Shown: positions 1,609 through 19,512 of the stretch, piece after piece
Layout of the letters: every line of letters starts with the position of its first letter
How positions within the stretch are numbered: the stretch's first letter is position 1
Program-made: the position numbers and the translations under genes
The notes under the pieces: model-generated
Seen by the model: only the letters and a program-made list of their open reading frames with translations
The model's database searches: none
Told to the model about the DNA's origin: nothing
Virus record (IMG/VR): IMGVR_UViG_3300031612_000700
Span: 1 to 20,529 of that record
Strand: one strand, 5' to 3'
Source: a virus
DNA length: 20,529 nt

Positions 1609-3138
1609 TTAAGTCGCAGTACCGAATCCACTAATGCCAGCAGCGCCACCAGCTAAACTGCCAGTACCTCTAAACCTAGAGGTACGATTATTCAAACGTT
1701 TATCAATAGCATTAACAGCTTGATCGTCAAGACTCCAAATACCTTCAGCTAATGAATCAACACTTAGCGAAGATTCATTTCCGATTGTTTGAAGCAAACC
1801 TTTTTTAGATCCCATAGCTTGTACTTCTCTAGCTTGAATGTCTATATCAGATAACTGTTGAGAAATACTTTTACCAGTGGCAGTACCAAATGCAGCTTTT
1901 GCTCCTGCACCAATCTTTGCTGTATTCATTTCATTTTGTACAGTTAAACTATTTACAGTTTTTTCTGGATCTAGATAGTACGCAATCAAATCATTTTGAT
2001 TAATACCATGCTGTATCAAAAGTTGATTAGAAATTTCAGTATCAGCATATGAAGCTGCTTCAGCAGCAGCAGCAAAACGTGTACCTAATTCTATAACTGA
2101 AATATCGTTAGCAATAATTTCAGCTACTTCTGCAGGCGTATCAAATAATGTTGCATCTATACCATATTCTCTAGCAAGACTTTGAATACTATCTTCTAAA
2201 GCTAACCCTTCATATTCACTAATAGCGTTGTAACCATTTTCTCTACGAGTAGTCATATAAGGGAAACGTGCAGCATACGCTGAATGCTCTCTCAGTTTTT
2301 GAGTGATTGTAATTTCAGATGCGCCATCTATAATTTCTTGATCTAAAAATTCTATTAACGTTAACCCAGTAGTTGCGTCTTTTATATCACCAGCAATCCC
2401 AAAGTTAGTTAAAAGAGTTTTAAACACACTACGAGCTTCAGTTGTTTTCTTTAACGCAGCAAGTTCAGTACCAGATTGCAATGCTCTAATCTGTGTTTGC
2501 AAAGACTGATATTGTGAATCATTTAATCGAGAATTGTTTTTTGGACCTTCACCTAATCCTGGGGCACCCAGTATTGAGGGCGGCGGAACATTCGGATTAA
2601 ATCCAGCAGGAGGTTGAATTGCATTGTCGCCAGCTTCGATAATACTATTTCGTTCAGCTTCGTAAGCATCCCAACCAGCTTGACTATCCGGTCCCCACTT
2701 ACCATCAGCTTCAGTATCACCTATATCAAACCCAGCATCTAACAATTGCTGTTGAACTTCTCTAACAGAATCATCTCCGCCAGAATCTGAATAACCTGTA
2801 CGCAAATCAAAAGCTTTTAACTCATCAGGTACTGCTTCAGTAACTCCAGTAGCTCCCATAGGGTTAGCTTCTGTTTCACCTTCGTAAGCATAAGAACCAA
2901 GATCTTGCATTTGAGGATCACTAGATTCTTCAATACCAAATAACTTTGCTGCAGTTGTATCTACAGTTACTTTTCCTGCTTTATCCTTTATAACGCTTCC
3001 ACCTTTGTAAGGATTTTCTGCAGTACCTGCACCAGAATCAACAACTGTTATCTTTACTTCTTCACCATTCGACCAAGAAGGATCTCCTGGAAATATTTGT
3101 ACCCAGGTATTATCGTCATTTACTTTAATTCTTGCCAT
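1609..3138 (-). CDS. Virion-associated protein with peptidoglycan-binding-like repeat
   Basis: A 509-residue protein with no cysteine, ending the four-gene run that begins with the giant protein. The N-terminal 110 residues are acidic and probably flexible. Residues 125-160 read VREVQQQLLDAGFDIG then ADGKWGPDSQAGWDAY, matching the peptidoglycan-binding domain 1 pattern (x-x-V-x-x-x-Q-x-x-L-x-x-x-G-F...D-G-x-x-G-x-x-T/S-x-x-A). The rest (about 200-480) is helical, with RFPYMTTRRENG, EYEGLALED and YYLDPEKT, and ends in a Gly/Ala-rich tail. That C-terminal part resembles, from memory, minor virion proteins of actinobacteriophages. The start at 3138 directly abuts the previous stop; GGAG lies about 11 bases upstream. 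A plausible role is cell-wall contact or DNA delivery during entry. No catalytic wall-hydrolase motif is visible, so this is not called a lysin. Confidence 0.55.
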   Translation of the reverse strand: MARIKVNDDNTWVQIFPGDPSWSNGEEVKITVVDSGAGTAENPYKGGSVIKDKAGKVTVDTTAAKLFGIEESSDPQMQDLGSYAYEGETEANPMGATGVTEAVPDELKAFDLRTGYSDSGGDDSVREVQQQLLDAGFDIGDTEADGKWGPDSQAGWDAYEAERNSIIEAGDNAIQPPAGFNPNVPPPSILGAPGLGEGPKNNSRLNDSQYQSLQTQIRALQSGTELAALKKTTEARSVFKTLLTNFGIAGDIKDATTGLTLIEFLDQEIIDGASEITITQKLREHSAYAARFPYMTTRRENGYNAISEYEGLALEDSIQSLAREYGIDATLFDTPAEVAEIIANDISVIELGTRFAAAAEAASYADTEISNQLLIQHGINQNDLIAYYLDPEKTVNSLTVQNEMNTAKIGAGAKAAFGTATGKSISQQLSDIDIQAREVQAMGSKKGLLQTIGNESSLSVDSLAEGIWSLDDQAVNAIDKRLNNRTSRFRGTGSLAGGAAGISGFGTAT

Positions 3139-4131
3139 TTAACCCACGGCTCCAAATTTTTTGAGTATAGATTCACCGACAGTTCGATAATCTTCATGTC
3201 CATTTTCTGTAAATTGCCACTCATCTTCTAATTTTGTCATTGCCTGATTCTCTGTATAAGTAGCAAGCCGAGGAACACCTGTTATTGGATCTGGTATAAA
3301 CAACATTTCAAACATACCTCTATCTGCACCTAAATAATCTAAAGGACGCTCAAGCAACTTTTCTTGTTCCGCTTTATATGGATAAAAAAATGTTTTAGGA
3401 CTTATACCTTGCTCCATCAAAGGACGTAAAGCTGGATATTGATTTGCAGCCATCTCTGCATACCCAGCATCTAAACCTTCTTCCGTAACAAGACCCCGTT
3501 TAAGATCAAATGTTTGATCCCAAGCATCTGCATCAGAAAGAGCCAACATATAGTTAGATGCTCTACCTTGCAACGCTTGTTTTTGATCAAGCAAATCGCC
3601 TGAACTTCTATAAGTATTTAACCCATCACCTGCAATAGAACTGTAAGAACGAGGATCAAACAACTCAAAAATTTCTGTATCAATTTCAAATGAATCCATG
3701 TTCAAACGAGTAGCTTCACGAGCTAAAGCAATAATCTGTGGTTCAGATAATACAATACCTTTTTTACTAATCGATCTAACAATTGCATCATAGTTAGTAT
3801 CAATAAGCGCACGTTGACTATCAGTTAATGGAACCTCAGGATTGTAACCTCGTGATGTTCCACCTCCAGCAGCCCACCAACTTTCTTCAAACTCTCTAGA
3901 AATTGCATCTTGGCTTTTCCAAAACTCAGTTTCAATAAGAAGCCCAAATATACGCTGCTCGCTATAACCTTTACCTTCTAAATATTCTACTAAATCTTGT
4001 TCGACACCATCAACAACAATTTTTAAATCAGGATGGTTTCTAAAAAATCCTATTGAACCCCATTGGTCAATAATCGTTTCAAATTTGTTTGCATCAATTT
4101 GCATACTTTCTAGGTCTGTTTGTTCCATCAT
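3139..4131 (-). CDS. Minor virion protein of unknown function (330 aa)
   Basis: A soluble, mostly helical protein of 330 residues with no cysteine. The N-terminal third has DQWGSIGFFRNHPDL and IFGLLIETEFWKSQD. The C-terminal third has YPALRPLMEQGISPKTFFYP, then a Leu-rich stretch, PDPITGVPRLATYTE, and a closing WQFTENGHEDYRTVGE with ILKKFG near the end. The order 'Y-P-a-l...G-i-s...f-P-Y...D-P-x-t-G-x-P...W-x-x-T-e-n...il-k-x-F-G' recalls proteins found in the structural region of actinobacteriophages, a recollection I cannot verify here. The start ATG (4131) overlaps the preceding stop as ATGA, and AAGGAG lies 12 bases upstream; an adjacent second ATG makes MM a choice of start. Translational coupling to the 314-residue gene suggests co-assembly. 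No enzymatic motif is visible. Confidence 0.6.
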   Translation of the reverse strand: MMEQTDLESMQIDANKFETIIDQWGSIGFFRNHPDLKIVVDGVEQDLVEYLEGKGYSEQRIFGLLIETEFWKSQDAISREFEESWWAAGGGTSRGYNPEVPLTDSQRALIDTNYDAIVRSISKKGIVLSEPQIIALAREATRLNMDSFEIDTEIFELFDPRSYSSIAGDGLNTYRSSGDLLDQKQALQGRASNYMLALSDADAWDQTFDLKRGLVTEEGLDAGYAEMAANQYPALRPLMEQGISPKTFFYPYKAEQEKLLERPLDYLGADRGMFEMLFIPDPITGVPRLATYTENQAMTKLEDEWQFTENGHEDYRTVGESILKKFGAVG

Positions 4132-5072
4132 TGGCCTAAATTGCTCCTTGATAATTTAGAAATAATAGAAGAAACATTTGAAGATTGTTGTGCTAATACT
4201 TCTTCAGGATTATTTTCTTGTAAAAAGTTTTGTGTTTGACCTCCAATAACTGGAGCAAACCCAGAATCTGTTTCTTCTAAAAATCTGTACTGTGATTTAA
4301 AATTACGAGCTTCTGCCGCAGTAGGAGCACGACCAATATATTGTTTTGAGTACGCATCAAATTGTCTATCAACCTCAAATGGATCTGTAAACCTAGTGCT
4401 TGTTTCTGCTTCAACCATTATTTCATTTATAGCAGCATCAAACGATTCTTTAGAAAAATCATTAAGCTCTGGATCTAAAAAATTTCCTTCGTTCATTGTA
4501 GGAACAAATGTCATATCTCCAGTTATGGCAGCTTTTTGAATTGCATCTATTGCTGCTGCATGTAATCCATTTAAAACAGTAGTTTTTTTATATATATGTG
4601 AAAGATCTTCCCCACGATCAGGATCAAAAGTAGTTAACTCTTTTAAAAAGAGTGCTTCAGCTAAACGTATATGTTCTACACCGCTTAAATTTTTATAATA
4701 ATCTTGCAAATTTTGCATTGTAAAACTAGCAAGATCATCTACTGAGTCTTTTGCTTCAATATTTTCTAGCGTAGTTTCAAATTCTACTGGGTAAGAATCA
4801 TCAGTCATGATGCCAGTTGAACCTGGCTGATTATCAGTAGTAAGTACTCCTGTTGCTAAACGTTCTTGATAATCTAGCAATCTAGATTTTTGATTAGTAG
4901 TTCTATCCGCAGGACTTATAGCTAGTATCTGATCTATAAATCTTTGTAATGTGTCAATAGTAGATTGTATTAGTGGCTGTCCTGCTAAAATTGAATTTAA
5001 AATGTCAGCATCATAACCAAGAATGTCGCTTGTATTTGGTTTTGCAATTGTGCTGTTATCGTTTGTAGCCAT
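4128..5072 (-). CDS. Minor virion protein of unknown function (314 aa)
   Basis: I do not recognise this 314-residue protein. It is acidic, predicted mostly helical, has no cysteine and no membrane segment. Visible stretches include DTLQRFIDQILAISPADRTT (about 40-59), a helix-rich middle around SGVEHIRLAEALFLKEL, and FEVDRQFDAYSKQYIGRAPT followed by AEARNFKSQYRFLEE towards the end, with a Gln/Asn/Ser-rich tail. It starts 4 bases after the stop of the giant gene with AGGA upstream, and its stop overlaps the next start (ATGA). Its place between the giant protein and the 330/509 pair suggests a structural or internal virion role. This is inference from context only. Confidence 0.55.
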   Translation of the reverse strand: MATNDNSTIAKPNTSDILGYDADILNSILAGQPLIQSTIDTLQRFIDQILAISPADRTTNQKSRLLDYQERLATGVLTTDNQPGSTGIMTDDSYPVEFETTLENIEAKDSVDDLASFTMQNLQDYYKNLSGVEHIRLAEALFLKELTTFDPDRGEDLSHIYKKTTVLNGLHAAAIDAIQKAAITGDMTFVPTMNEGNFLDPELNDFSKESFDAAINEIMVEAETSTRFTDPFEVDRQFDAYSKQYIGRAPTAAEARNFKSQYRFLEETDSGFAPVIGGQTQNFLQENNPEEVLAQQSSNVSSIISKLSRSNLGQ

Positions 5073-5076
5073 TAAT

Positions 5077-8000
5077 TTATCCTATCCCTAATCTAGGTAT
5101 GACAGAATTTACGCCAGTATTTACATTTAATTCTTCATCATCAGAAAAATATCTATTATACAAAGGAGCAAATTCTATCCAGTTAGAATTTATTTTTGGA
5201 TTTGAAATAGAATCTCTAAAATCAAGCCAACTACCACGAATCTGATTAAATAAATCATCATCGGTAGACCATGCAAATCCCATGTCTTCCATAAAGTTAG
5301 TTATTTGATCTCGTGTATCCATGTAATCTTTAAGAGAAGCCATTTCAAGCCGATCAGCAAAATCAGGATCTTTAACAACTTCGCGGAAAGCTTGAATTGT
5401 TCTTATCTTTACACCAGGGTTACCAATATCTAACCATTCGTTATACCACTCTGTATTTGTTTGAGTAAGTTCTTTAAGTCCTTGTTGCCATACCAAACCA
5501 GCAGTGCTTTCTTTAAACGCTTTCTGGTTTTTACTTAAAGTTCTTTCTAACTCAGGATTAGCTTCTATTACTGCAGCGTTATTAATATTATAATCTGCTA
5601 CTTCTATTCTCCATTGCTGATCAACTCCTCGTAATAGATCATTAAAATCATTCCAACCCATACTAACTTTAGTATCGAAATAACGTTTAGGATCACTAAC
5701 AACTTTTCGTCTGCCTTGGCTTATTTCGCTATCAACAACAACTTTGTTATAAGAAGTTTCATATTCAAGTTCTTGACCAAGAGGACCATATTTGCCTATA
5801 ACCCAATCATCAATTTCAGGCCACTCTTTTATAAAGGTTTCAAATTTATTAAAAAGAAAATTTCCTTCTTGTGTACCACTAGCAGCACCAACAATTTGTG
5901 TACGTCTAGCTGTAGTCATAAAGTACCCTGTATCCCAGAGTTCTTCATTAGCTATTTCTTGACCATATTCTTTGTACGTTTCCCAATACTCATTTAAATT
6001 ATCTGTGTATGGTGAAACAATTTGTAGTGGAAGAGGAGAAGCTGAAGCCAAAGCTGCTTGCGCTATAATTAAATTTTGAGCTATCTCAAAAGACAATTCA
6101 TCTATTGCATTAAGACTTGCTTGATTTAACGGTTCGTTACCTGCTTCAAAATGTTGCACCATAAGCATGTCGTATGCCCAAGATTTTGTTGAATTAAATC
6201 TTTCATTATTTGCTTGATAAGTAATATTTGTTCCTGGAACTTTAAATTCTTTTCCTGATGCAATTATTGCCCAGTTAGGTCCCAAGTTTTTTATTGCTCG
6301 TTTTAACATGCTTCCTTCAGGATCTAATCCGTAAGGTATAAACATTTTTAAAGCACGTTCTAAACTTGGTATCTTTAAAAGAACTTCATTAGAAATTACA
6401 CTTGTATAATATCCACCAAAAACATTAAACGATTTTGTTGAATTAATAGGTAATAAACTGGTAGCATTTGCTCTTATTTTTTTGCCTGCTATATCACTAA
6501 ATTTACCAAATCCATTTTCTAAATTTAAACCGTAAATACTTGTTGGTATTTTAATTGTGTTACGTTTGTTCCCATTTTCATCTTCACCTTCTGTACTGCC
6601 TATAGCCGCACGAACATATTTGTGTGTTCGTATAGGATCATGGTATGTGTGTTTAGTCCAAGAAGTTAAAACTTCTTGACCAGCACCTAAAAATGGAGCA
6701 ATTGTTTTAAACAATTCTTGAAATTTAGTTTTACCAGCCATATTAAATAATGTTTGTTTAACTTGATTATCAGCGTATTGTTTAGCTTTTAATAATATTC
6801 CATCAATTTGACTTTGATCTATACCGCTTGACCGCAACAAAGCTAAATAGTTAATACTCTGAGTATTGTTTGCATTCTCAAGTGAAAGATTTGGAACGCT
6901 TGGATCACCAGCAAGATCAAGTCCTTCTGAAACTGCATCATTATATATTTTACCTTGTGCATCTATCTCATTTGATAAAAGTGGATTATCAATATTAGGA
7001 TGATCAAAAGATAACGTATTAATTTGTTGACGAATAATTGAAACATCTTCAATAGCTTTTGAAATAGTTTGTAACAAATTAAGCGTTGGTCTATCTACAA
7101 ACAAATTAGTTAAAGTATCATTTATTTCAAAATTGCCACCGAAAAGTCCAACTTCATTTGCTACTTCTGCATACGGTTGATAGCCACGAGACGTTTGCAA
7201 AAGAAAATCAGTATAAATTTGTAAAGACCTATCGGGCATTGCAATGTCATTAACTATCCATTGTTCTAAATTAGGTCCACGAGAATCTGGTTGTTTAACC
7301 ACATCCATTTCTTTAATTATATTAGTTAATCCATTTGGGAATAACAATGAAACAACATCAACATCAACACGATTACCACTTTTGTCTATAGTAACAGCAC
7401 TACCAGATTTTATTTTTTTAAGTAATTCAAAAGTTTCACTAAGCCCTACTCGTTTAGCATAATCTTGATCAACAAATTGTTCTATCCGTTCATGCCGTAA
7501 CCTTAAAAGTTGTTCTGTCATTATAGGCTGTTGCTGATATTGAGAGAACGTGGCGTCGTTTTGACTTTGTTGAAGAACTTGATTTAATTCAAAGCCATAA
7601 CCATCTTTATTCCATTGAGCCGCAAGTTCTGGATATGTTTTTATAAACCTTGACATAGGTGGATTTAACATTGGTGTTATAGCAGCTATTGTGTTTTCAA
7701 GATATTTTGTTACATGATGTTTGTGAGTACTATCTCGCATTGCACTCTGTGATTTTAAAAATAAACGGTCATAAGCATTATCTACTTTTTGTAAAAGGTT
7801 TCTTGATATACCAAGTTGTTCACCTAGTTGTTTAAACGCATCAGAACCTGTAACTTTTCCAAAATCTACGTGCCCTAAATTTTCACGGATATTAAATATA
7901 GGACTTCTTATTCCTGTAACTGTATTCGACGGAGCCATAGTTGATAGAACAGGTTCGATATCTGCTTTCCACGAGACTTCAATACCTTGAGCAGCTTTTT

Positions 8001-11000
8001 TTCTAACATGTGCAAACTCAAGCATAGGTGGAATCATGCTGTTGTATTCGCGAATCATACGACTAACTATTGGTAAAGTATTTTCTGTCCATTCAATAGG
8101 AGCAGTAGCCATAAGATCAGCAGCGTCAGGAGATCGCAAATACGTTACAATTTCTTTAGCAGTATCTCCTCTCCAAACTCGTTTTGGTAATTCTCTAAAT
8201 GCATTCATAGCTGCACCATCAGGCAATGGAACCATAAATTTATTTATATGATTATCCCATGCTGCTGAAAACACTACGTCACCATTAGGCATATCAAAAG
8301 TAAACTGAGTTGTTTTTTGAGCAACTTGAGAATTATTAGGAAGTTGAGTTGTGTATAATTCTCTAGCCCATACTCCATCTTGTTTAACTTTTTGACTAAC
8401 AGCCCATTCTTGAGGATTTTGACCTAATTCTCCAGGTAACAATTCGCTTCCTATAGCTGTAGGTTGAACACCTGCAGCTAATTGTTTACGCCCAGCAAGA
8501 TCTGCAGCATCATAAAGTTCAGGATAAGAATCTCTAGTTCTAGCCATTATGTGTGCATGTTGTTTTGCTTGTTGTAAATCACCAGTTAAAGAAATAGCAA
8601 ACGCTCGTTTTAATTGTTCTATTTCTGCAATAAGAGCTTCTTCAGAATTGACTTCTGTCATCATGTCATATTCTTTAGTTACTTTTAATGGATCAATTAA
8701 AAGCTCATCTTCAACATTTGATTTCACGCGTGTCTCTAATAAAAAATCTACTTCATTACGAGGAATTTTATATTTGCTAACAGTGTCGCCTTGAGATGCC
8801 ATAGTGAAAAAGGATGAATCTCCTTTTGCTATAGCTGTTAAAATAGCTACCTCTTCTGCTTCAGAAACACCCATAACTATGTCTCTTGAACCTGTACCTG
8901 ATCTAGTAATTTTCCAATTTTCTGAGCCTGCTTTTATTTTTGTTTGAGCTGTTTTAGCAAGGAATTGAAAAAGATCAGCTAAACCATTGCTAACACTTCT
9001 CATGTAATCTGTTTCAGTTATACCCTCACGAATTATTTCGTACCTTGGTCCTGTAAAACCTGGTGAAAGAGCTTCTTCTAATAGTGATCTTGCAGTTAAC
9101 TCTACGTTGTTAACAGTGTAAGAATAAAAATCTAGATCGTTAGTTTCTGAAAGAGTAGGCCTATATGATTTTTGTTGTGGATCATACAAATCTTGATCAT
9201 TCAAAATAGCAACAGTATCGTTAAAAGCATTTTTCTTTTTAGTAAATCTATTTATTAAAGATTGAAGTACATTGCCTGAAGAGTCAAGTTGTTTTTTATG
9301 AAGATTGCTTATTGTTATTGGAGCAGTAGCTTCTGGTAGAAATTGTCCAGAACCGTCGGGTCCGTCAATTAAACGAGTTTCTTTTGATTCAATACCAAAA
9401 ATACGTAACTGTTCATCAGCTACATCATATATGTTGTACTCAAAATTCATGTCATCAATTTGTGTAGTACGTATCCCATATCTATTACGAAGACTTTCGT
9501 AATTTGCTTTTGCTTCAATATGTTGACCTTCTAATGTGTTAATCTCATTAAATATATTACGTCTTGCCTGGTATCGGCCTCCTTCGTCAGACCAGTCGGC
9601 GTTAGGAAGAGCAAGTTCATCATCAAGATCATTAAGTTCTTTTGTAAGAACTTTTAATCTTTCTTCCATAATCTGTGGTTGACTAAACGCTTCTTGTATA
9701 TTTTTTGATGAAGCTAAACTACGTGATGTATCTGGATTAAACCAAGGCAACAAGTTTGATCCTGGAAACATAGGATTTAAAGTAAAACTTATAGGTCCAT
9801 CTAAATTATTGTCAGGAATTAAATCACCTGAACGGTAAACATTAATAAATTCTTGACCTGGATTTACTTGACTTAAAACGTTATTGCTTAAACCTTTAAG
9901 ATGGTCTTGAAGTAATTCTAATTCTTTATCAGTTATCCAATTACTTGGCATTAAATTCTCTGCAGGTATATAATTTTTTTCTCCATATTCTTTAAGACCA
10001 AGCATCATCTCGTCAGCATCAGTATTTGGAGTACTACCTTGTTTGCTTATAGAATTACTTAGATATTTGTTCTTGTCTGTATGAGGACCTGCCCATCCAG
10101 AACTGGTTACTGAAGAAAAATGATACAACCCTAAAATTGCTTGTTGTTTTGGTGTATACAGTAAATCAAATAAATTAACACCAGTTCTAGTTGATACTAT
10201 TTCCCAACCTTTACCTCCATTAAGTGTTCTATTAATTAAACCTTCAACACGTTTGTCAGATACTATTCCTAGTTTGTCTAAGGAAATGCTATTAGGCGCT
10301 AACGCTTCAAACGCTAAAGTAACATCGTCTATAACATCATAACCTGGAGCAATTCGTTCAAATATAGCTTTGTTAGTGTCTATAAAAGATTGTAATTGTT
10401 TTTGATCTAATACAGAAATATCAGATGTTATGGGTTCCCGCATCTGCATTTCAAAATCAAGCTCTAAATTCTTAACGTCGTCTATCTGTGTTCCACTGCG
10501 ACTGTTTGTTTGATTTTGATATTTAAAAAAGTTACTTAAGAATGGTATTTGTTTTTCAAATGCTCTTGTGCTAATTAAATGTTGAGGACCAATAGTACTA
10601 GCGTAATGTCCAGTGAAAAGTGACAAAGCACCAAGTTTAGCTATATCTGAATTTCTGTTAAACAAATGCCTTAAAAAAATTGTTGAACCTTGTAAACTCA
10701 TAGAGCCTAAAACAGAGTAAGCAATTTCATCAATCACAGTTGTTGTTTTTGTTTTAATTTCTGCTGGACTTATTTGTTCATTTGTAACTGGATCTCTTTT
10801 ATAAACAAAAATTGTGTCAAGCTCTTCTGATTTCATTAACTCAACATCATTGGGTGTTGGTCGTCGATATACACCTCGTTGTTGAGAAACGTTATTCGTT
10901 CTAGATTGAACAATTATTTCATCATCTAATAAATTATCAAAAGTTTTAAATCCTACAAGCTCAGGGACTACAAGTGATATTCCTTCTGCTGCTTCTTTTG

Positions 11001-14000
11001 CTCCTTCTATCAATGGAGGGTTTGTTGGATCAAATTTATTTTTTGGGTCTAAACGCCACGGAGGAGTTAGCTGCAAAGAATTCAAACTCTCGTTGAGATT
11101 GTTTGAGCCACTTCTTACTGAATCATCATAAATATTTACTGCGCCTATACCTATACTGTCGTCATAACGTTTTACTTGAGCATCAATATGAGACTTTTGT
11201 AAATGCTTTGCATAAGTTTGAAGGTTTAATCCTTGCAATGCAATCTCGCGTTGAGCAACTCTTGTAAGAGAACGTTGAGCTAATACACCACCAAACGTAG
11301 CTGCAAGACCAGCAGTCCCACCTAAAAGAGATCCTATTGTTAACCCAGTAATAGCGCGTACAGTTTGATTTCCAATTTTTCCTTTTTGTATAAGGTCTTT
11401 ACTAGCGTAACCATACCCTGCTTCTTTATAAACATTTTCCCATATTGTTTGTTGTGTCGGAACATGTTTTAACCGTTCAAATTTATCGTAGACCATTAAA
11501 AGTTGTATATGATCTAATTCAAGATTTCCAAAAGATATAGAATTTTCTGGTAACACACGAGTATCTAAAGCTTGGTCAGGTGTTAATGACACGCCAGGTA
11601 AATTAGATGGGATATTTGTAGCTTGGACATCAAGCGCTTTTACTTCAACTAGTTTGCTTGTTCCAAAATCTTGTACTACAACATTTTCACGATTTAAAAT
11701 TTGTTTAACTTTTTCTGCCCCTAATTTATCAAAAGCTATTTGTAATTCATCTTTAGTTTTTTGTACCCAAACTGCTGTAGGGTTAAAAGAATTTTTACGA
11801 ATGTCTCTATAAATTGCGCTAGTTCTTATATCAGCAAGCCCACTAAAATAACCTGAACTTAATTCTAAAATATTCATTTGTTGCATAGAACGAAACGCAT
11901 CATCAAGATTAGTTAGAAGAGGGTAGCCAGGGAATCTAGCTAATTTGCCACGTTTCCAAAACATAGTTAAAACGTCGTTAAGAGAAGAAAGAGCTTCAAT
12001 AACTTTTACTTCTCCTACAGCAGAATTTTGTTGGTTAAGAATCTTTCTTATGTCTCTATTGATATGACGAAAATCTGGAATTGTACTTGCTGTTTGAAAC
12101 TGTGCTGGTGATATTGGTCCGCTTGTAGCGTCGTTAACTCTAAAACTTTGTACTTGTATAACCTGCTCACCAGCGGTGTTTGTTCCTATTTCATTATAAG
12201 CTATATCAGAGTTACCATATATTTGAGTTCTGTTATTTGAATAAGCCTCTTGCATTGAAATTTCATTTTGTTTATGACTTAGATATAATTGGTCTGACAA
12301 CTTTATTTCGTTAGTCATAGGCCATACATCTGCATATATACGATCTATACTTGTAAACAGTTTTTTTACTACTTCATTAAACAACACTTGTTTTTCAACA
12401 ACATTCATTTGAACAAACCTGGCTATAAGTTCATTCTTTGAATATCCAGCAAGAGTTACAACATCTTTACTTTTCTTAACGGATTTAAAAATTTCTGATG
12501 TCGAAGAAGAAATTGTAGGTTTAATAGCTTCAGCATCTAATATCATTTTGCGAAATGCTTTATCTATATTCTGAACTGACATATCTTTCCACACAATAAT
12601 ATTGTCTTGTGCTTCAGAGAAAAAATATTCAGCAGTTAAATTACGAGAACTTAAAGGTGCTTCGTTAGGTATTGAAGATTTTTTTACACTATTAATTATT
12701 TCTTTAGCTTTACTAATTGCTGGAAGTTGTACTTTATCATTTACACCAACCAACATTGATGGTCCTATTAAACTTCCAAACGTTCCTTTAGGACCATAAG
12801 CATCGCTTATCGAATCAACAATTCTGCCTATTAGTCCTGGATAAGTTCTAGCTGTATGCAAATTAATTGCACCACGTCTATAAGCAAATTGGTTATATGG
12901 TTTATCTCCTCCAAAAGCTTCCCACACATCAGGGTTTTGCGCTTGATCAGGATCATTTAAAATAGTTCTTGGATCTTTTGTAACAGGTGCTACAACGTCT
13001 GCTTCTCTAAACGTGTTGTGTTGTTGTGGAATTATTTGTTTAACAGGAAAACCATTAGCATCTAATTCTCTTGTTGCTTGTTCATCTGCCAAAGCTCTGT
13101 TGTTAACTACTGTACGAGTTACAACACTGTCTAATGGAACTGCATCTCTAACCCATAACCCAGCATCATTAACTCCAGGGGAAATAGTTTCAGGTGGACG
13201 AAGAAGATTTTCTATTTGTTTAATAGCCATATCATAAGCATCATGAAATGGAAGATTTTTAGCATTTCTTAAAGCTACAATACCTACAGTAGAAGCTGCA
13301 TCTTTTGGCAATGACCAACTAATTTGATTGCTAACATAGTTAGATACATTTTGACCATATAGTTCTGCTGATTTATTTAATGACTCTTTAAAAATTCTTT
13401 CAGCATCTAATAAATCAACGTCACCAGTTAAAACTTTTGACATATCTTTTACTGCAGAAGCAATAGTAGCTCGTATACCTTCAATGCTTGTTGTTAAAAA
13501 ATTGTATTGTTTATCATTTTGTGCAAGTTGTTCTTGAGCATTAAAAGATGCCTGTTTTGTAGGCATTTTTTCTTTAGCTAAATAATCTAAAAATGATTCT
13601 CTATTACCAACAACATCATTTAATTCTTTAATATGATCTTGCAAACTTTGGACATTGTAAGTAATACGTTGGCGTAAACTATCTATACCTACTTGACTTG
13701 CTGCAATAGGTTCTCCTGGCAAAGCTTTACCTTCACCCATAGGTTGCAAAGCAAACAAATCAATATCATCTAAGTAGTTTTCAGGAACGTTTGGTTGTGT
13801 AATGATTGCAGCAATTCTGCCAAATTCAACAGCCGCTTCTTCTATAAGCGGTATTTGTCGATAGTCTGCCATCCCTAATTTAAGAACGTTTATTACAGAT
13901 TCATTATCTGAACTTTGTACTGCAGCACGGTAAATAGTTGATAAAGTTTTATACGGAGCATTAGCTAAAACTTCACCATACACTGCAGCATCTATTGGAG

Positions 14001-15306
14001 TTTCCCTTACGGCGTTTTCAATAAACGTCCCTAATCCTTCATTATATATTTTTTCATCAGCAACACTGTATACATTATTTTCTCTTGCTGCTGTTGAAAG
14101 TTTTGATCTTGTTAAATCAGCATCGTCTTTAATTATTTTTACTAAAGACATTCCGTTTCCGTTAGGTTTAAAATGGTCATCTAGTACTGAGCTATAGTTA
14201 CCATCACCATCCAGTACAAGATCAATTATGTCAAATTCTTTTCCAACATTAGTATTTGCAGGACCTTTAGGAAGACCTTTTACTGTGTATAAAGGAGGAC
14301 CTGATTGCGTTGGGTTTGGTGTAAAGAATTTTTTAGCGTTACGCCAAGTTGATCCTTTAACAAGTCGAAGATATCTTGTTCCTGGATCTCCTACAAATCT
14401 AAATATGCCATCAATCATCCCTGATGAAATATTGTAAGTTTCTGGATGTTCTAACATGTATCTAGTAGTAGCTACTTCATCTGTCGGGTCTACTTTAACT
14501 AAACTAAAAGTTATTGTTGCCCCAATACTTGAAGTAGTAGCAACATTCCAAAGATGTTGTTGTCTTTCTACAAAACCCATTGCTTCAGCTACAGTATCAG
14601 GGTTCCCCTCTTGTCTTCTTCTAGCTTGAACTTCAAGATCATTCCAACTAAGCATACTAAATTGGGCAACGTTTTGAAAAAGATCATAAATTTCGTTATA
14701 GGTTAAAGCTTGTTCAGCTATACCTTGTCCAATAGTTTTTTTTGAACCATCAGCATTAAGTGGTTGTCGCTTAACCGCACCAGTTGTCATTCCGCTTGGA
14801 GCGCGTAATGATTCTAAAGGAAGATTCATTATGAATCTACCACTATTAGAAAAACCTTTTGTTATCTGCTCGTCATAAGGTAACGCTTCATACAATTCTT
14901 TGACATCTTCATATGTACCTGTCAATATATTTAGAAATGATTCGGTTAGAGTTGCGCGTGAAACCTCAAGATCATCAGACCGATTAGGTTGGGGAGTTGT
15001 TTTTGCATTGCCAGGCAATGCACGCCATCCACGTTCTGCAGCACCTATTAAATCAACAGAACCTGTAGGTTTATATCTGCTGTCCTCACCTTCACCTGGA
15101 AGGTTTATAGCTTTTTGAGGGTCTTGTTCAAGAAAAAGTTGATGTGCTGCATCAGCACCAAATTGTAAAATTCGTCCAGAAAACGACATAGGTAAATCAG
15201 TAACTTTGTTTGCAAGGTTTAACCCATCTTCTGCTACACCACGAGTTAAATAATATCCATCTGCGGCTATGTCTAAAACAGATTCCCACCAACGTTTACT
15301 ACTCAT
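5077..15306 (-). CDS. Giant 3409-residue virion protein, cysteine-free, probable internal or ejected protein
   Basis: A single uninterrupted frame of 3409 residues takes half the window, between portal and scaffold genes. Its translation contains no cysteine. Seen in the sequence: a soluble N-terminal half; a Gly-rich hydrophobic segment at 1318-1344 (starts AITGLTIGSLLGG) that could enter a membrane; a weak ADP-ribosyltransferase-like region at about 1723-1845 (GLYHFSS, then VYRSGD...PISFTLNP); a charged coiled-coil candidate at 1880-1944; and near the C terminus a patch LFKTIAPFLGAGQEVLTSW at about 2865-2883 followed by HDP, a style I associate with large internal virion or polyvalent phage proteins. 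The start ATG overlaps the preceding gene by 8 bases and has only a weak GGAA site, so coupling is likely. Size is like N4 virion RNA polymerase, but I found no polymerase motif B. A tape-measure role is less likely because there is no long uniform heptad repeat. Confidence 0.7.
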   Translation of the reverse strand: MSSKRWWESVLDIAADGYYLTRGVAEDGLNLANKVTDLPMSFSGRILQFGADAAHQLFLEQDPQKAINLPGEGEDSRYKPTGSVDLIGAAERGWRALPGNAKTTPQPNRSDDLEVSRATLTESFLNILTGTYEDVKELYEALPYDEQITKGFSNSGRFIMNLPLESLRAPSGMTTGAVKRQPLNADGSKKTIGQGIAEQALTYNEIYDLFQNVAQFSMLSWNDLEVQARRRQEGNPDTVAEAMGFVERQQHLWNVATTSSIGATITFSLVKVDPTDEVATTRYMLEHPETYNISSGMIDGIFRFVGDPGTRYLRLVKGSTWRNAKKFFTPNPTQSGPPLYTVKGLPKGPANTNVGKEFDIIDLVLDGDGNYSSVLDDHFKPNGNGMSLVKIIKDDADLTRSKLSTAARENNVYSVADEKIYNEGLGTFIENAVRETPIDAAVYGEVLANAPYKTLSTIYRAAVQSSDNESVINVLKLGMADYRQIPLIEEAAVEFGRIAAIITQPNVPENYLDDIDLFALQPMGEGKALPGEPIAASQVGIDSLRQRITYNVQSLQDHIKELNDVVGNRESFLDYLAKEKMPTKQASFNAQEQLAQNDKQYNFLTTSIEGIRATIASAVKDMSKVLTGDVDLLDAERIFKESLNKSAELYGQNVSNYVSNQISWSLPKDAASTVGIVALRNAKNLPFHDAYDMAIKQIENLLRPPETISPGVNDAGLWVRDAVPLDSVVTRTVVNNRALADEQATRELDANGFPVKQIIPQQHNTFREADVVAPVTKDPRTILNDPDQAQNPDVWEAFGGDKPYNQFAYRRGAINLHTARTYPGLIGRIVDSISDAYGPKGTFGSLIGPSMLVGVNDKVQLPAISKAKEIINSVKKSSIPNEAPLSSRNLTAEYFFSEAQDNIIVWKDMSVQNIDKAFRKMILDAEAIKPTISSSTSEIFKSVKKSKDVVTLAGYSKNELIARFVQMNVVEKQVLFNEVVKKLFTSIDRIYADVWPMTNEIKLSDQLYLSHKQNEISMQEAYSNNRTQIYGNSDIAYNEIGTNTAGEQVIQVQSFRVNDATSGPISPAQFQTASTIPDFRHINRDIRKILNQQNSAVGEVKVIEALSSLNDVLTMFWKRGKLARFPGYPLLTNLDDAFRSMQQMNILELSSGYFSGLADIRTSAIYRDIRKNSFNPTAVWVQKTKDELQIAFDKLGAEKVKQILNRENVVVQDFGTSKLVEVKALDVQATNIPSNLPGVSLTPDQALDTRVLPENSISFGNLELDHIQLLMVYDKFERLKHVPTQQTIWENVYKEAGYGYASKDLIQKGKIGNQTVRAITGLTIGSLLGGTAGLAATFGGVLAQRSLTRVAQREIALQGLNLQTYAKHLQKSHIDAQVKRYDDSIGIGAVNIYDDSVRSGSNNLNESLNSLQLTPPWRLDPKNKFDPTNPPLIEGAKEAAEGISLVVPELVGFKTFDNLLDDEIIVQSRTNNVSQQRGVYRRPTPNDVELMKSEELDTIFVYKRDPVTNEQISPAEIKTKTTTVIDEIAYSVLGSMSLQGSTIFLRHLFNRNSDIAKLGALSLFTGHYASTIGPQHLISTRAFEKQIPFLSNFFKYQNQTNSRSGTQIDDVKNLELDFEMQMREPITSDISVLDQKQLQSFIDTNKAIFERIAPGYDVIDDVTLAFEALAPNSISLDKLGIVSDKRVEGLINRTLNGGKGWEIVSTRTGVNLFDLLYTPKQQAILGLYHFSSVTSSGWAGPHTDKNKYLSNSISKQGSTPNTDADEMMLGLKEYGEKNYIPAENLMPSNWITDKELELLQDHLKGLSNNVLSQVNPGQEFINVYRSGDLIPDNNLDGPISFTLNPMFPGSNLLPWFNPDTSRSLASSKNIQEAFSQPQIMEERLKVLTKELNDLDDELALPNADWSDEGGRYQARRNIFNEINTLEGQHIEAKANYESLRNRYGIRTTQIDDMNFEYNIYDVADEQLRIFGIESKETRLIDGPDGSGQFLPEATAPITISNLHKKQLDSSGNVLQSLINRFTKKKNAFNDTVAILNDQDLYDPQQKSYRPTLSETNDLDFYSYTVNNVELTARSLLEEALSPGFTGPRYEIIREGITETDYMRSVSNGLADLFQFLAKTAQTKIKAGSENWKITRSGTGSRDIVMGVSEAEEVAILTAIAKGDSSFFTMASQGDTVSKYKIPRNEVDFLLETRVKSNVEDELLIDPLKVTKEYDMMTEVNSEEALIAEIEQLKRAFAISLTGDLQQAKQHAHIMARTRDSYPELYDAADLAGRKQLAAGVQPTAIGSELLPGELGQNPQEWAVSQKVKQDGVWARELYTTQLPNNSQVAQKTTQFTFDMPNGDVVFSAAWDNHINKFMVPLPDGAAMNAFRELPKRVWRGDTAKEIVTYLRSPDAADLMATAPIEWTENTLPIVSRMIREYNSMIPPMLEFAHVRKKAAQGIEVSWKADIEPVLSTMAPSNTVTGIRSPIFNIRENLGHVDFGKVTGSDAFKQLGEQLGISRNLLQKVDNAYDRLFLKSQSAMRDSTHKHHVTKYLENTIAAITPMLNPPMSRFIKTYPELAAQWNKDGYGFELNQVLQQSQNDATFSQYQQQPIMTEQLLRLRHERIEQFVDQDYAKRVGLSETFELLKKIKSGSAVTIDKSGNRVDVDVVSLLFPNGLTNIIKEMDVVKQPDSRGPNLEQWIVNDIAMPDRSLQIYTDFLLQTSRGYQPYAEVANEVGLFGGNFEINDTLTNLFVDRPTLNLLQTISKAIEDVSIIRQQINTLSFDHPNIDNPLLSNEIDAQGKIYNDAVSEGLDLAGDPSVPNLSLENANNTQSINYLALLRSSGIDQSQIDGILLKAKQYADNQVKQTLFNMAGKTKFQELFKTIAPFLGAGQEVLTSWTKHTYHDPIRTHKYVRAAIGSTEGEDENGNKRNTIKIPTSIYGLNLENGFGKFSDIAGKKIRANATSLLPINSTKSFNVFGGYYTSVISNEVLLKIPSLERALKMFIPYGLDPEGSMLKRAIKNLGPNWAIIASGKEFKVPGTNITYQANNERFNSTKSWAYDMLMVQHFEAGNEPLNQASLNAIDELSFEIAQNLIIAQAALASASPLPLQIVSPYTDNLNEYWETYKEYGQEIANEELWDTGYFMTTARRTQIVGAASGTQEGNFLFNKFETFIKEWPEIDDWVIGKYGPLGQELEYETSYNKVVVDSEISQGRRKVVSDPKRYFDTKVSMGWNDFNDLLRGVDQQWRIEVADYNINNAAVIEANPELERTLSKNQKAFKESTAGLVWQQGLKELTQTNTEWYNEWLDIGNPGVKIRTIQAFREVVKDPDFADRLEMASLKDYMDTRDQITNFMEDMGFAWSTDDDLFNQIRGSWLDFRDSISNPKINSNWIEFAPLYNRYFSDDEELNVNTGVNSVIPRLGIG
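11274..11355 (-). other. Gly-rich hydrophobic segment inside the giant protein
   Basis: This codes residues 1318-1344 of the giant protein: 27 residues without a charge, rich in Gly, Ala, Leu and Thr, beginning AITGLTIGSLLGG and ending FGGVLAQ, bounded by basic residues on both sides (KIGNQTVR before, RSLTRVAQR after). It is the only stretch of membrane-spanning length I noticed in the protein. The flanking charge and GxxxG-like spacing suit insertion into a lipid bilayer or oligomer packing, as expected of an ejected channel-forming protein. Confidence 0.4.
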
Positions 15307-15706
15307 TATTTCCAGTTTCGCTTGATGTTCTTATTGGACCTAAACCGCTACGAAGTTTTACAGCAACATTATAGAAATCGGTATTAGGAGTACTGTTACT
15401 AATAATGCCATTCATCACATCTAACAAAACAAAACTTCTAAATGATTCTTGCCGTTGTTTAAAATTTGTAGGTGCAGGCTGTTGTAAAACAGATTCATTA
15501 GGCATTTCAGAAGGCCGAGCTAAAGGACCAAAACTTCCAGGTGCTGCTCTTGTTTGTGACGGTCTACCTTGTGGTTCATTTATCGGTGCAACATCTTCTG
15601 GGATTGGAGCAACAGCTAATGATTCTTCAAGAGCTACCGTTTCTCCATACTGAGAACTTGCAGGCGTAACATCTTCTGTCGCTTGCATTTTTCTAGGACG
15701 TGCCAT
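15299..15706 (-). CDS. Small Pro/Ser-rich disordered protein between portal and giant gene
   Basis: A 135-residue protein I do not recognise. It starts with a basic MARPRKM and is then rich in Pro, Ala, Glu and Ser (for example EEVAP-like and EGRPSQ-like runs; PINEPQGRPSQTRAAPGSFG at about 41-60), so mostly disordered. A short ordered helix is likely near FRSFVLLDVMNGIIS (about 89-103). It has no cysteine. The ATG at 15706 directly follows the portal stop (TAAATG), with AGGAG 10 bases upstream inside the portal gene; its stop overlaps the giant gene's start by 8 bases. This chain suggests the protein is made with, and may act as a linker or assembly partner of, the portal and the giant protein. 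Function is unknown. Confidence 0.6.
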   Translation of the reverse strand: MARPRKMQATEDVTPASSQYGETVALEESLAVAPIPEDVAPINEPQGRPSQTRAAPGSFGPLARPSEMPNESVLQQPAPTNFKQRQESFRSFVLLDVMNGIISNSTPNTDFYNVAVKLRSGLGPIRTSSETGNNE

Positions 15707-17458
15707 TTATAAAGCTCCTAATAATTGTTCTATCCCTTGAGGAGTTTCTTCTCCCATTTCCATAGGCGCACCAGCCATACTTTCTGCACCCATACCAGGT
15801 ATAGCTAAACCAGGTTGAGCTTCTGGAGCCATAGGTTCAACTTGTTCAGCTTGTCGTTCTTGTGCTTCACGTTGAACTTTTTCTATTGCACCAGCTAATT
15901 CCATATCATTATTTTTTACTAAATCCATAATGCGTGCTAGATCTGCAGGAGGAATAACGCCTTCAGAAGCTTGCTGCTGAATAGAGCTAAGCAAAGCTTG
16001 TTCTAATTGTTCAGCAATTACTGCATCATGTTCAAACTCTGGATCATCAATCAATGGATCAATCATCATAAACGATTGTTTAGACATTGTTCCCATGCCC
16101 ACACGTTGACCGCCGCCTATAACAAGATTGTTTATATCTGCACCAGCTTGGCTGTAGCTAACAACATTGTCAGTGCTATCAAAGTTATCTCTAGGTATAT
16201 AGTCAACATGTCCTTTAGCAGATTTTGAACTTACATAAAAAGATTGTTTTTTGTTTTTGGAATACGCTAAAGCCATATTGATAGCTATTTTGTTTTCTTC
16301 TTGTAAAGATCTTGCTACTATTTTTTGTGCTTCTTGTATTGGGAAATCTACTACAGCACTTAGTACAGCATCTCCACGGCGTCCTGTTCTAATGTTAGAT
16401 GAAGATTCGCCACCATATTCTGCTGGTATTCCAGCAGTTAAACGTTGTGCTCTTTCCAATCTGTCTATAGCTGGGTTAGTCATATAGCCTGGTTGAAGTG
16501 CCATATCTCTTAATTCGCCACCTCTAATAATTCCTACTTCACCAGTAAGACCATCAGCAGGGTTAACAATCTGTGGTGTTTCTCCCGCTCGACCAACTAA
16601 CCAAGTATCTGGGAAGATTCCTTTTTGTACAGCTATTACTTCAAGCGCCATTAAACGTGCTTGCATTTGATACATGCCAAGTATGCCATCAAATTGGCCT
16701 TGCGCTCCATCTAAAGAAATACGTTGAGTACAAACAACTGGTGTTTCGCCTAAAGGATTAACAGTTCTTTCTAATGGTATAACTAAACGTTTAAGTGTTT
16801 TTCTATCCCATTGATTTCCAGTTTCTACTGGACCTCTTGTAGCAATAAGAACCTGAGAATCATGATCTACATATTCAATCATGTCAATTGCGTCATCTGA
16901 ATTTCCTGAAACGCCACTTAACTGGTCTGGGTACATAGCTCGTACCCATCCTAATGTTCTAGTGTAATTAAAAATAACGTTTTCAGGACGTAAATCATTT
17001 ACTCCATAAACTGGCGCTGCATAAGTTGTTAAAGGATCACGGGCATACCATTCAGGGCATCCTGTTTTAGCATTAAATCTTATTTGAGTTATAGTTGTTG
17101 CATAACCAATCAGTTGTCTAGCACGTTTTCCCATCTGCAAATCCATGCGACTGTTTTCCCACCATCCAAACAGTGCTTTACGCCTTATAGATGCGTTGTC
17201 TCTAGCTCGTTTTTTAGTTGGATCAACTGGTGGACAAAAAATATCTGGTGTAGTTGACGCTATTCGCATAGCTGTTTGATCTAAACCTTGTGAAAGAAGA
17301 TTAGCTACAGCAGATTTTTCATCTGCGTCAATCTCAGGTAAAGGAACTATAACATCTCCGTTGTAGTAATCACGAAGCGTTAGCATTCTTGATTTTAAAC
17401 CGCCATAAGCATTCACTCGCGAAGTGTATAAGTCAAGAATCTCTTCGTTTGTTTTCAC
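15707..17458 (-). CDS. Portal protein
   Basis: The 583-residue head-vertex channel through which DNA is packaged and ejected. Family-like features are the N-terminal YYNGDV (31-36) with downstream AVANLLSQGLDQTAMRIAST, the tryptophan-rich ALFGWWENSRMD helix (95-106), the central ILGMYQMQARLMALEVIAVQ helix, and NPAIDRLERAQRLTAGIP followed by NIRTGRRGDAVLSA, as in many portals of tailed phages. The C-terminal 60 residues are Met/Pro/Glu/Ala-rich and probably disordered inside the capsid. It has three cysteines, unlike the genes that follow. The start is GTG at 17458: the ATG two bases earlier (17460-17458) runs straight into TGA, and GAGG lies 5 bases before the GTG. It follows the terminase stop by 26 bases. 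Confidence 0.88.
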   Translation of the reverse strand: MKTNEEILDLYTSRVNAYGGLKSRMLTLRDYYNGDVIVPLPEIDADEKSAVANLLSQGLDQTAMRIASTTPDIFCPPVDPTKKRARDNASIRRKALFGWWENSRMDLQMGKRARQLIGYATTITQIRFNAKTGCPEWYARDPLTTYAAPVYGVNDLRPENVIFNYTRTLGWVRAMYPDQLSGVSGNSDDAIDMIEYVDHDSQVLIATRGPVETGNQWDRKTLKRLVIPLERTVNPLGETPVVCTQRISLDGAQGQFDGILGMYQMQARLMALEVIAVQKGIFPDTWLVGRAGETPQIVNPADGLTGEVGIIRGGELRDMALQPGYMTNPAIDRLERAQRLTAGIPAEYGGESSSNIRTGRRGDAVLSAVVDFPIQEAQKIVARSLQEENKIAINMALAYSKNKKQSFYVSSKSAKGHVDYIPRDNFDSTDNVVSYSQAGADINNLVIGGGQRVGMGTMSKQSFMMIDPLIDDPEFEHDAVIAEQLEQALLSSIQQQASEGVIPPADLARIMDLVKNNDMELAGAIEKVQREAQERQAEQVEPMAPEAQPGLAIPGMGAESMAGAPMEMGEETPQGIEQLLGAL

Positions 17459-17484: not shown

Positions 17485-19383
17485 TCAAATCCATGATGGT
17501 CTCTTCTGACGATTATTAACTATAGTCGGTGTATGAAGATTATCTAAGTTATGTTCAAAAAACCATTGCGCCATAACGCAATCGTCTGTACGGGCACCAG
17601 TACCTTCAGCATTCCATTTAGTTACTTCATTAACTAGTAATAAAGAATGTGGACGTGCTTCTGTGTCTCGCCTACCTGGTAATCGTATGCGACCTACTTT
17701 CCATAAAGGTGCCAACATTTGCACACCATATTTAGGGTCACCTTTATTACGACTATGAGTATAGTGTGGCACAAGTTGGACGTTACGTAAAGCTGCCCAC
17801 CTTCTAAAGTGATCATATTGCATAATAAACTTTTGTGCAGCGTTAGCTTCTACTACCCAGTGAGTTATTGGTTTACCTAAGTCGTTAGTTATTTGCCACC
17901 AATCTTCCGCTACCCCAGAAAATGATTGTTTCTCATGGCTCCAATCTAAAAACGATGGTGCATCCATCTTACGTCGATAAGATTCTAGCAAATACCTGTA
18001 TTCAGTATTCGGGTTGTATGCCCAGCATTGCAATGCCCAAAATTTTGAAGGCGATGGATCAGCAGTAGCTATTACTAGCAGATCATCATAAACATTTGGC
18101 GGTAACTCCCAAAGATCTCTGTCATTATCCCAACATCCAGGGTGTTCTATACCGTCGTTGCCTTTACCACCTGATACCCATAAAGGATTTACTAAAACGT
18201 TGTCAGGGTTTATGTCCGATTGCTGATACAGGACTTCAAATCGGTCTGGAGTTTGCGCTTTAATGTGTCTAAGTCGTCGCCACGGCAATCGACGAGGGTA
18301 AAGTAAGCACCCCTCGGGCCAGGGTGTGGCGTCAGGTTTGTGATCGCCTTTACAGCGGTCTTCATAATGGACAGGATATTTGAGATGATGGTATTTTCGC
18401 CATTCAGGCGGGGCATCTTCGACATTGATTTCGTCCTCTAGTTCTAGTTCGTCGGGAGGGGCGACCTTATCTAGAGCGTAACGATAGATATCGTCAGCGG
18501 ACATGCGCTGACCTTGTAGGATCAGCAAGCCGCCTGGTTCTAAACGAGTTTCAGCTACCTCATCCCACCAACGACGCATATCTTCTCTGGATTCTGCGGA
18601 ACGCATCTTCCTCGGATCGTATACATCGTCCCAGATCACAAGATCAAATCGGCCTCCAAGGAAACCGGAGTCCATCCCGAACGCAGACCATGTAGGTTCT
18701 TTTTGAGATAACGGAGCGTCACCTTGTTGTAGTACAGTGAAGGCTTCTGAACGCCAAATTTCAGACGAATCTGGTTTAAACATTCCAAAGTCTTCTTGGA
18801 TTGTCGCTTCTGCATCTATCGCTAAGCCTAAACGGACATCGTTTAGTTCAGCACGTACAGGATGTGAACGATCCAGTTCTGATCTTAACCTACGAGAGTA
18901 CCATTCAGCTAGCCTTTGTGACGAAGAACCAATCATCCCACGAATAGCACGGTTTCTAACAGTGGCCCACGCAGGTAATACCTTTGCGAAGAAGGTTGAT
19001 TTACCGCAACCAGGAGGCGCATTGATAACAGCGTACTCTTCATACTCTGTTTCCATTAACCCCATGATGCGTTCTGTCGCTTCGATCTGCCAGGGTTGCA
19101 AGACAATGCCAAAATATCGCCGAGCAAAAATTTCTATATTGTCATATGCCGCTTTAGCTTCAGGGATAAGATCTTCATAAGAAGGGACCCCTATAGCGTT
19201 TTGTTCTCCCAAACTTTCTTTAGCAGCTACATAGTTTCGTGGTGATTTCCCTGTTTCTGCTTCTTTGCAAGTATGGTATGAGATTTGTAATGTCTTAGAT
19301 GAAGCAAACATTGAGGTGCCTGCTCGACGAAGGACTAAATATTCTGTCCATTTGTCTCTAGTTATAGGTGTACCTGATGGCAT
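17485..19383 (-). CDS. terL: Terminase large subunit (packaging ATPase and nuclease)
   Basis: This 632-residue motor drives genome packaging at the portal and cuts the concatemer. The ATPase part shows LQPWQIEATERIM (95-107, adenine-binding Q-motif style), Walker A APPGCGKST (122-130), and Walker B FDLVIWDD (246-253), with Asp in the usual Glu place. A coupling segment LLILQGQRMSADDIY follows. The nuclease domain shows D442 (ATADPSP), E512 (VVEANAAQ) and D600/D601 (RTDDCVMA), the three expected acidic positions. About 60 N-terminal residues precede the ATPase and look like a helix-turn-helix (EYLVLRRAGTSM then LQISYHTCKEAETGK). No separate small terminase gene is recognisable nearby, so this extension may bind DNA in its place. 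The ATG at 19383 has AAAGGGA upstream. The gene is clearly more GC-rich than its neighbours. Confidence 0.92.
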   Translation of the reverse strand: MPSGTPITRDKWTEYLVLRRAGTSMFASSKTLQISYHTCKEAETGKSPRNYVAAKESLGEQNAIGVPSYEDLIPEAKAAYDNIEIFARRYFGIVLQPWQIEATERIMGLMETEYEEYAVINAPPGCGKSTFFAKVLPAWATVRNRAIRGMIGSSSQRLAEWYSRRLRSELDRSHPVRAELNDVRLGLAIDAEATIQEDFGMFKPDSSEIWRSEAFTVLQQGDAPLSQKEPTWSAFGMDSGFLGGRFDLVIWDDVYDPRKMRSAESREDMRRWWDEVAETRLEPGGLLILQGQRMSADDIYRYALDKVAPPDELELEDEINVEDAPPEWRKYHHLKYPVHYEDRCKGDHKPDATPWPEGCLLYPRRLPWRRLRHIKAQTPDRFEVLYQQSDINPDNVLVNPLWVSGGKGNDGIEHPGCWDNDRDLWELPPNVYDDLLVIATADPSPSKFWALQCWAYNPNTEYRYLLESYRRKMDAPSFLDWSHEKQSFSGVAEDWWQITNDLGKPITHWVVEANAAQKFIMQYDHFRRWAALRNVQLVPHYTHSRNKGDPKYGVQMLAPLWKVGRIRLPGRRDTEARPHSLLLVNEVTKWNAEGTGARTDDCVMAQWFFEHNLDNLHTPTIVNNRQKRPSWI

Positions 19384-19392
19384 GTAGTCCCT

Positions 19393-19512
19393 TTACTGAC
19401 AAGATTCACATATGTCAGGATTTTCTAAGCCGCATTCGATTGGGGTATCGTCTTTAAAAGGATCATAACGTTCACCCATCATTTCTGTGGGTAGTTCTTC
19501 AGGTTCTTCCAT
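19393..19512 (-). CDS. 39-residue cysteine-containing microprotein
   Basis: A short acidic protein read directly from the sequence between the coiled-coil gene and terL: it begins MEEPEELPTEMMGERYDPF and ends in a segment ECGLENPDICESCQ, so C27, C35 and C38 are spaced C-x7-C-x2-C. The ATG at 19512-19510 overlaps the upstream TGA as TGATG, the usual sign of coupled translation, and it fills an otherwise unexplained 128-base gap, stopping 9 bases before terL starts. Three cysteines could bind a metal or form a disulfide, but a fourth ligand is not evident; H residues are absent. No homolog is known to me. Support is the coupling, spacing and composition. Confidence 0.5.
   Translation of the reverse strand: MEEPEELPTEMMGERYDPFKDDTPIECGLENPDICESCQ

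Follow-up and report, generated by a model that had tools for sequence, protein, structure and literature searches.

What is the role of a viral protein of 3409 residues whose gene lies between those of the portal and of the scaffold? This question is raised by a viral DNA of 20,529 nucleotides (the window, by which the whole stretch analysed is meant), where a single open reading frame on the minus strand (positions 5077 to 15306) accounts for 10,230 of the bases. The frame has 3409 codons, an ATG start at the 15306 side and no internal stop, and its product has a mass of 381 kDa, a pI of 5.1 and no cysteine. No significant match was found for this product in Pfam, PHROG or NCBIfam, and a search for internal repeats found none. 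It can be proposed, with a probability of roughly 0.78, that the giant, in a phage with a short tail, is an internal virion protein that is ejected and forms the main part of a four-gene cassette.

Gene context and family of the giant

On the minus strand, the genes are read in the order TerL, portal, a 135-residue protein, the giant, proteins of 314, 330 and 509 residues, a scaffold-like protein of 154 residues and the major capsid protein (MCP). TerL (17485 to 19383) matches phrog_38 (E 2e-50), and the portal (15707 to 17458), which forms the upstream border of the cassette, matches phrog_104 (E 8e-7). The small protein between portal and giant (15299 to 15706) is free of cysteine and its gene overlaps that of the giant by 8 bases. 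Beyond the giant, cassette gene 2 (314 aa; 4128 to 5072) occupies the place of gp10 of the Beephvirinae. Cassette gene 3 (330 aa; 3139 to 4131) matches phrog_6654 (E 1e-4), which is common to Streptomyces phage proteins bearing NlpC/P60 and SLT domains; no Pfam match was found for ten marine cassette gene-3 proteins. Cassette gene 4 (509 aa; 1609 to 3138) matches phrog_8424 and has a weak, sub-threshold Pfam match to PG_binding_1 (peptidoglycan-binding). None of these three products contains cysteine. The scaffold-like gene (1023 to 1487; phrog_7813) is the downstream border of the cassette, and the MCP (14 to 985) belongs to the N4-gp56 family, as an earlier note on this DNA had stated (TIGR04387, 105 bits for a cut-off of 60; PF13252, E 1e-18).

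Third-position G+C in the window is 0.14-0.20 in the giant and cassette genes (1609 to 15706), as against 0.34 in TerL and 0.28 in the scaffold gene; in the relatives, that of the giant lies by a median of 0.09 below TerL, portal and MCP. A protein of 158 residues (19512 to 19988), with an N-terminal hydrophobic segment and a coiled coil, gives a weak Rz-like spanin match (E 8e-4) and is 96% identical in two relatives, most others having it at 35-44% or lacking it. In several relatives, a 90-residue protein with 13 cysteines, without Pfam match, is encoded directly upstream of TerL (L011 9719-9991).

As a query against IMG/VR, the whole window giant (conserved peptides) gave no match. Relatives were therefore gathered via TerL, which yielded 50 contigs at 61-89% identity. 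The giant is readable in 45 contigs including the window; 44 of these giants are complete (1628-3409 aa) and one, in G030, is cut by the contig end. All 44 contigs other than the window have an open reading frame of 1628-3166 aa at the equivalent position between portal and scaffold (the cut one included), so that a chance open reading frame is excluded; the window giant is the longest of a family that keeps a common core over a two-fold size range. Thus, the intact gene of 3409 residues between portal and scaffold is confirmed, at the positions given in the earlier note, which did not name the strand. It is, however, not the isolated oddity that the earlier note suggested, since all relatives examined, the Beephvirinae (gp09) and the Planktophila phages E7 and F5 have a giant gene flanked in this way by those of portal and scaffold. 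One contig of 59,966 bases (G029; L069-L071) holds two head modules whose giants differ (1837 and 2915 aa), either through chimeric assembly from two relatives or as a tandem arrangement.

Sequence comparison through these relatives places the giant in phrog_10618, a family without functional annotation to which gp09 of the Beephvirinae, podophages of Streptomyces (Immanuel3, Manuel, FlowerPower, Abafar and others), belongs. The window giant alone has no match to phrog_10618 at E 0.1, and the link runs via its relatives. Between it and the giant of G024, a compact relative, identity is 26% over 610 aa (E 2e-43), and the G024 giant in turn matches gp09 (E ~1e-25), also reached by tblastn. Moreover, phrog_10618 is matched by 20 of 21 relatives (best E 2e-43), and the 45-member family profile aligns with Immanuel3 gp09 over 1049 columns (100% probability, E 3e-42). 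Like the window giant, gp09 is without cysteine and stands after the portal and before phrog_6654, phrog_8424, phrog_7813 and the MCP; it has 1648 residues and is annotated as hypothetical, whereas the window giant carries large extra inserts. The cassette neighbours in the Beephvirinae bear NlpC/P60 and SLT cell-wall hydrolase domains, and the Beephvirinae phage Abafar has a podoviral morphology (PMC11536984). The giants thus belong to a family that lacks annotation, the window giant being unusually large among them, and would be of a known functional class.

Actinobacteria are the hosts of the nearest cultured phages, and WhiB-like genes, a marker of these bacteria, were recognised by their motif in five relatives (G002, G012, G036, G037 and G038). 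On these two grounds, Actinobacteria are the likely hosts of the group as a whole and may be those of the window phage. A scan of GTDB gave a single match, a relative with 81% TerL identity (L135) in a metagenome-assembled genome labelled Gammaproteobacteria (SAT200), which is probably misbinned phage DNA.

Conserved blocks and variable slots

When the 45 proteins are aligned, conserved blocks appear in collinear order, parted by stretches of very unequal length. In this sense the earlier description of the giant as multi-domain is retained. No Pfam domain lies above threshold in the window giant or in 20 relatives. In the window, with all positions on the minus strand, the blocks are an N-terminal one (aa 130-308; 14383 to 14919) with near-invariant G130, P163, G262, D307 and P308, block B (aa ~850-1165; 11812 to 12759) with invariant Q1069, W1117, P1126 and R1139, block C (aa ~2186-2540; 7687 to 8751) and a C-terminal core (aa ~2829-3400; 5107 to 6822), which has a PF..A.QEV...W motif at aa 2871-2891 and holds most of the invariant residues. 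The alignment of relatives also delimits the variable slots I2 (aa ~1166-2185, about 1000 aa; 8752 to 11811) and I3 (aa ~2541-2828; 6823 to 7686). In window numbering, the distance between anchors ranges from 423 to 1448 aa for residues 308-1069, from 133 to 1156 aa for residues 1139-2295 and from 137 to 426 aa for residues 2446-2872; in small members, 133-305 aa separate the anchors of slot I2. For the bulk of the window insert in this slot (~1000 aa), no homologue was found in phages, the PDB or IMG/VR.

The core of the G024 protein is predicted to be nearly all alpha-helical, in a model of modest confidence (mean pLDDT 65, pTM 0.41). No PDB match was obtained for the core, either by profile search or by Foldseek with the G024 model, and the Foldseek matches of the model were uncharacterised phage proteins only, including one from Streptomyces phage Manuel. 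An uncharged segment rich in Gly and Ala (aa 1318-1343, AITGLTIGSLLGGTAGLAATFGGVLA; 11278 to 11355) is a candidate membrane-insertion element. About 42 of the 45 members have a segment of this type, of about 25 residues, at the equivalent site; it is absent from G035-G037.

The giants of G006 and G007 are 86% identical, yet the latter has about 230 additional residues. A related insert is found in six relatives (G001, G007-G009, G040 and L144; five of the loci are L011 15191-15595, L010 6839-7285, L043 15553-15924, L004 9516-9905 and L144 9977-10390, and the ART-like part of G008 is aa 370-504), in slot I2 for G001 and in slot I1 for the other five, the assignment of L144 being based on the distance to the N-terminal block. 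H22, Y69 and E113 are invariant in all six sequences. The insert is modelled as an alpha/beta fold (pLDDT 71), whose order of strands and helices resembles that of H-Y-E ADP-ribosyltransferases (ARTs). No ART match was found in Pfam, and the Foldseek matches are not significant, with protein kinases at the top and Arr-2 (E 0.79) and EcPltA (E 1.0) among them. From motif and model, the chances that this insert is an ART appear about even. In the window giant, a YRSG...GPISFT motif (aa 1823-1846; 9769 to 9840) offers no more than a weak ART-like lead, which has no Pfam match and is not supported by an HMM built from the ART-like inserts of the relatives.

Block exchange and cysteine depletion

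Among the relatives, the giant and the other cassette proteins are barely alignable, whereas TerL, portal and MCP are conserved. Over 741 pairs, median identity is 82% for TerL, 74% for the portal, 67% for the MCP and 57% for the scaffold, as against 21% for the giant. In 25 of 37 contigs, by a crude count that includes near-ties, the nearest relative according to TerL is not the nearest one according to the giant. Two pairs show this plainly: G003 and G004 share 97% of their TerL and 28% of their giant, G018 and G039 91% and 12%, respectively.

The clearest case involves two cultured phages, E7 (LanE43AprE7) and F5 (OX376640, OX376641), both of which infect the freshwater actinobacterial strain LanE-43 (PMC10202952). 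Their flanks are 96-98% identical and the block at 8373-16921 of E7 is unalignable with F5. In the same portal-scaffold place as in the window, this region encodes proteins shorter than those of the window and free of cysteine, of 1764, 442 and 530 aa in E7 and of 1711, 364 and 482 aa in F5. No blastp match at E 0.001 links the two giants (best E 0.053) or the 442- and 364-residue neighbours, and the 530- and 482-residue proteins share 26% identity. The family profile nevertheless aligns through the C-terminal core with the F5 giant (95.7%, E 9e-9) and, more weakly, with that of E7 (68%, E 5e-5). In the published description of the 8-kb island distinguishing E7 from F5, each phage has three or four hypothetical proteins there that lack a counterpart in the other of the two, and no role was assigned (PMC10202952); this island coincides with the giant cassette (L003 8373-16921; L148). 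As E7 and F5 infect one strain, host species does not explain the exchange. Judged from these alignments, the cassette is hypervariable and appears to be swapped as one unit between phages that are otherwise almost identical. This hypervariability, the exchange behaviour and the identity of the E7/F5 island are the newly recognised features.

The cassette is also marked by its poverty in cysteine. The 45 giants contain 8 cysteines in 102,143 residues, and the next three cassette proteins 10 in 64,475, giving 18 in ~167,000 residues overall; per 1000 residues, portal, TerL and other genes have 5.9, 12.2 and 9.3 cysteines, respectively. This marker was calibrated on N4, T7 and P22, phages with proven ejection proteins. 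Cysteine is lacking from N4 gp50, gp51 and gp52, from T7 gp15 and gp16 (T7 gp14 has one), from P22 gp7, gp20 and gp16 and from five virion RNA polymerases (vRNAPs) of Schitoviridae, whereas the majority of the remaining virion proteins of T7, P22 and N4 contain it. T7 gp9, P22 gp8, P22 gp26 and N4 gp56 are, however, cysteine-free though not known as ejected. Since scaffold and some capsid proteins thus also lack cysteine, depletion is not specific for a single protein; it supports ejection and does not prove it. The vRNAP was noted to be without cysteine, and the reason proposed was that, with disulphides, the protein would pass less easily through the tail (PMC3915230, 2014). Apart from this remark, the literature yielded no statement that ejection proteins are generally marked by a lack of cysteine.

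Proposed ejection and the alternatives to it

The idea that the giant is probably ejected, already put forward in the earlier note, is supported by the position of the gene, the cysteine depletion, the helical core model and the Gly/Ala segment. It is further favoured by the hydrolase-bearing neighbours in the Beephvirinae, the podoviral Abafar and the size variation and sequence divergence documented for podophage ejection proteins (PMC8954989). The T7 (gp14-gp15-gp16) and P22 (gp7-gp20-gp16) sets resemble the cassette in their cysteine depletion, their place among the head genes and their strong divergence in size and sequence; a set member with a hydrolase domain (in T7, gp16 with its transglycosylase domain; PMC8954989) has its counterpart in the cassette of the Beephvirinae. 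No family match to these proteins was, however, detected, and the window giant is 2.6 times as long as T7 gp16. As the literature yielded no virion proteomics, and no cryo-EM, for any member of the family, ejection of the giant is still inferred.

By analogy with podophage ejection models (PMC8954989; PMC12633501), from which the steps of packaging, refolding and channel formation are borrowed, the giant would be made late and packed in the head with the 314-, 330- and 509-residue proteins. Its domains, extended or only loosely folded, would then pass the portal and the tail, ahead of the DNA or together with it, and refold in or across the cell membrane, the partners helping to open the path of the DNA. 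The helical core and the uncharged Gly/Ala segment may contact or cross the membrane and help to form the conduit for DNA entry. Inserts of variable size are tolerated between the core blocks and might act in the cytoplasm; because the insert of some relatives looks like an ART, the giant may also carry effectors, a function that is speculative. The four genes evolve together and appear to be exchanged as a unit.

It could even be imagined that the giant is purely an injected effector of the polyvalent type, which delivers host-modifying domains and has no part in a DNA conduit. Precedents exist in polyvalent proteins and T4 Alt (PMC5512222), as injected ARTs, with which the giant would share entry together with the DNA and does share variable domains between conserved parts; the ART-like H-Y-E insert of six relatives, assigned from motif and predicted topology and missing from the otherwise 86% identical G006, adds to the likeness. 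We nevertheless consider this unlikely: the core blocks are present in all members and reach as far as Beephvirinae gp09, an enzyme cannot be recognised in the majority of the inserts, the ART fold is a candidate without significant Foldseek match, and the three neighbouring genes vary as a set with the giant, which fits a co-adapted assembly. In the window giant, no enzyme domain is recognised, and Pfam finds none of the at least two recognisable, disparate domains per polypeptide that characterise polyvalent proteins.

Tape measures are typically long and helical, and tail fibres also vary quickly, so that a tail structural protein (tape measure, fibre or adhesin) in an unusual place might be considered. 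This is improbable, as a homologue-bearing member of the Beephvirinae is short-tailed and therefore needs no tape measure, and as a fibre-like gene, an endolysin and other late genes come after the MCP in the relatives. Tail fibre variation in E7 and F5 was assigned by the authors to a second, separate island (PMC10202952). A match to tail proteins of the tape-measure or fibre kind, which the earlier note had set against ejection, was looked for and none was found; searches of Pfam, PHROG, the PDB and Foldseek gave no significant tape-measure homology or fold, with E > 0.1 for the Foldseek matches to annotated tape measures.

That the giant is a highly diverged N4-type vRNAP, ejected and transcribing early genes, might be suggested by size (3409 and 3500 aa), by the lack of cysteine in both and by the N4-gp56 type capsid protein, but this can practically be dismissed, being largely refuted by profile comparison (45-member profile against five Schitoviridae vRNAPs with hhalign: probability 0.0, E 0.91), by the T7-type RNAP motif B pattern, which is found in N4 vRNAP and is absent from the window giant and 40 of the 45 members, falling at three unrelated positions in the remaining five, and by gene order, as N4 encodes its vRNAP on the far side of the capsid gene and not between portal and scaffold. 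The earlier remark that no polymerase motif is apparent was therefore correct. Its comparison with N4 holds as an analogy, N4 gp50, with gp51 and gp52 of Schitoviridae, sharing size, absence of cysteine, a gene set of ejected proteins (proposed ones in the window) and a related capsid family with the window cassette; it fails for sequence homology and gene order.

We therefore favour an ejected internal virion protein. To our knowledge, nearly all ejection proteins described so far come from phages that infect Gram-negative bacteria; if the proposal is true, phages of Actinobacteria gain a counterpart to them. A probable role would then be given to an unannotated family of Streptomyces, marine and freshwater phages, and the previously unexplained 8-kb variable island of cultured Nanopelagicales phages would be accounted for. 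More tentatively, and as something we regard as possible rather than probable, the giant could be a swappable delivery chassis, with a conserved, membrane-active core and effectors in at least two slots, within a four-gene ejectosome exchanged en bloc. If so, the slots would bear an ART-like domain in several relatives and an unmatched module of about 1000 residues in the window, and phages of monoderm Actinobacteria would swap their ejectosome even between near-identical phages of one strain, the locus being subject to an arms race much as receptor-binding islands are. The exchange of the cassette suggests that the ejection machinery, beyond receptor binding, is a fast-evolving and exchangeable module.
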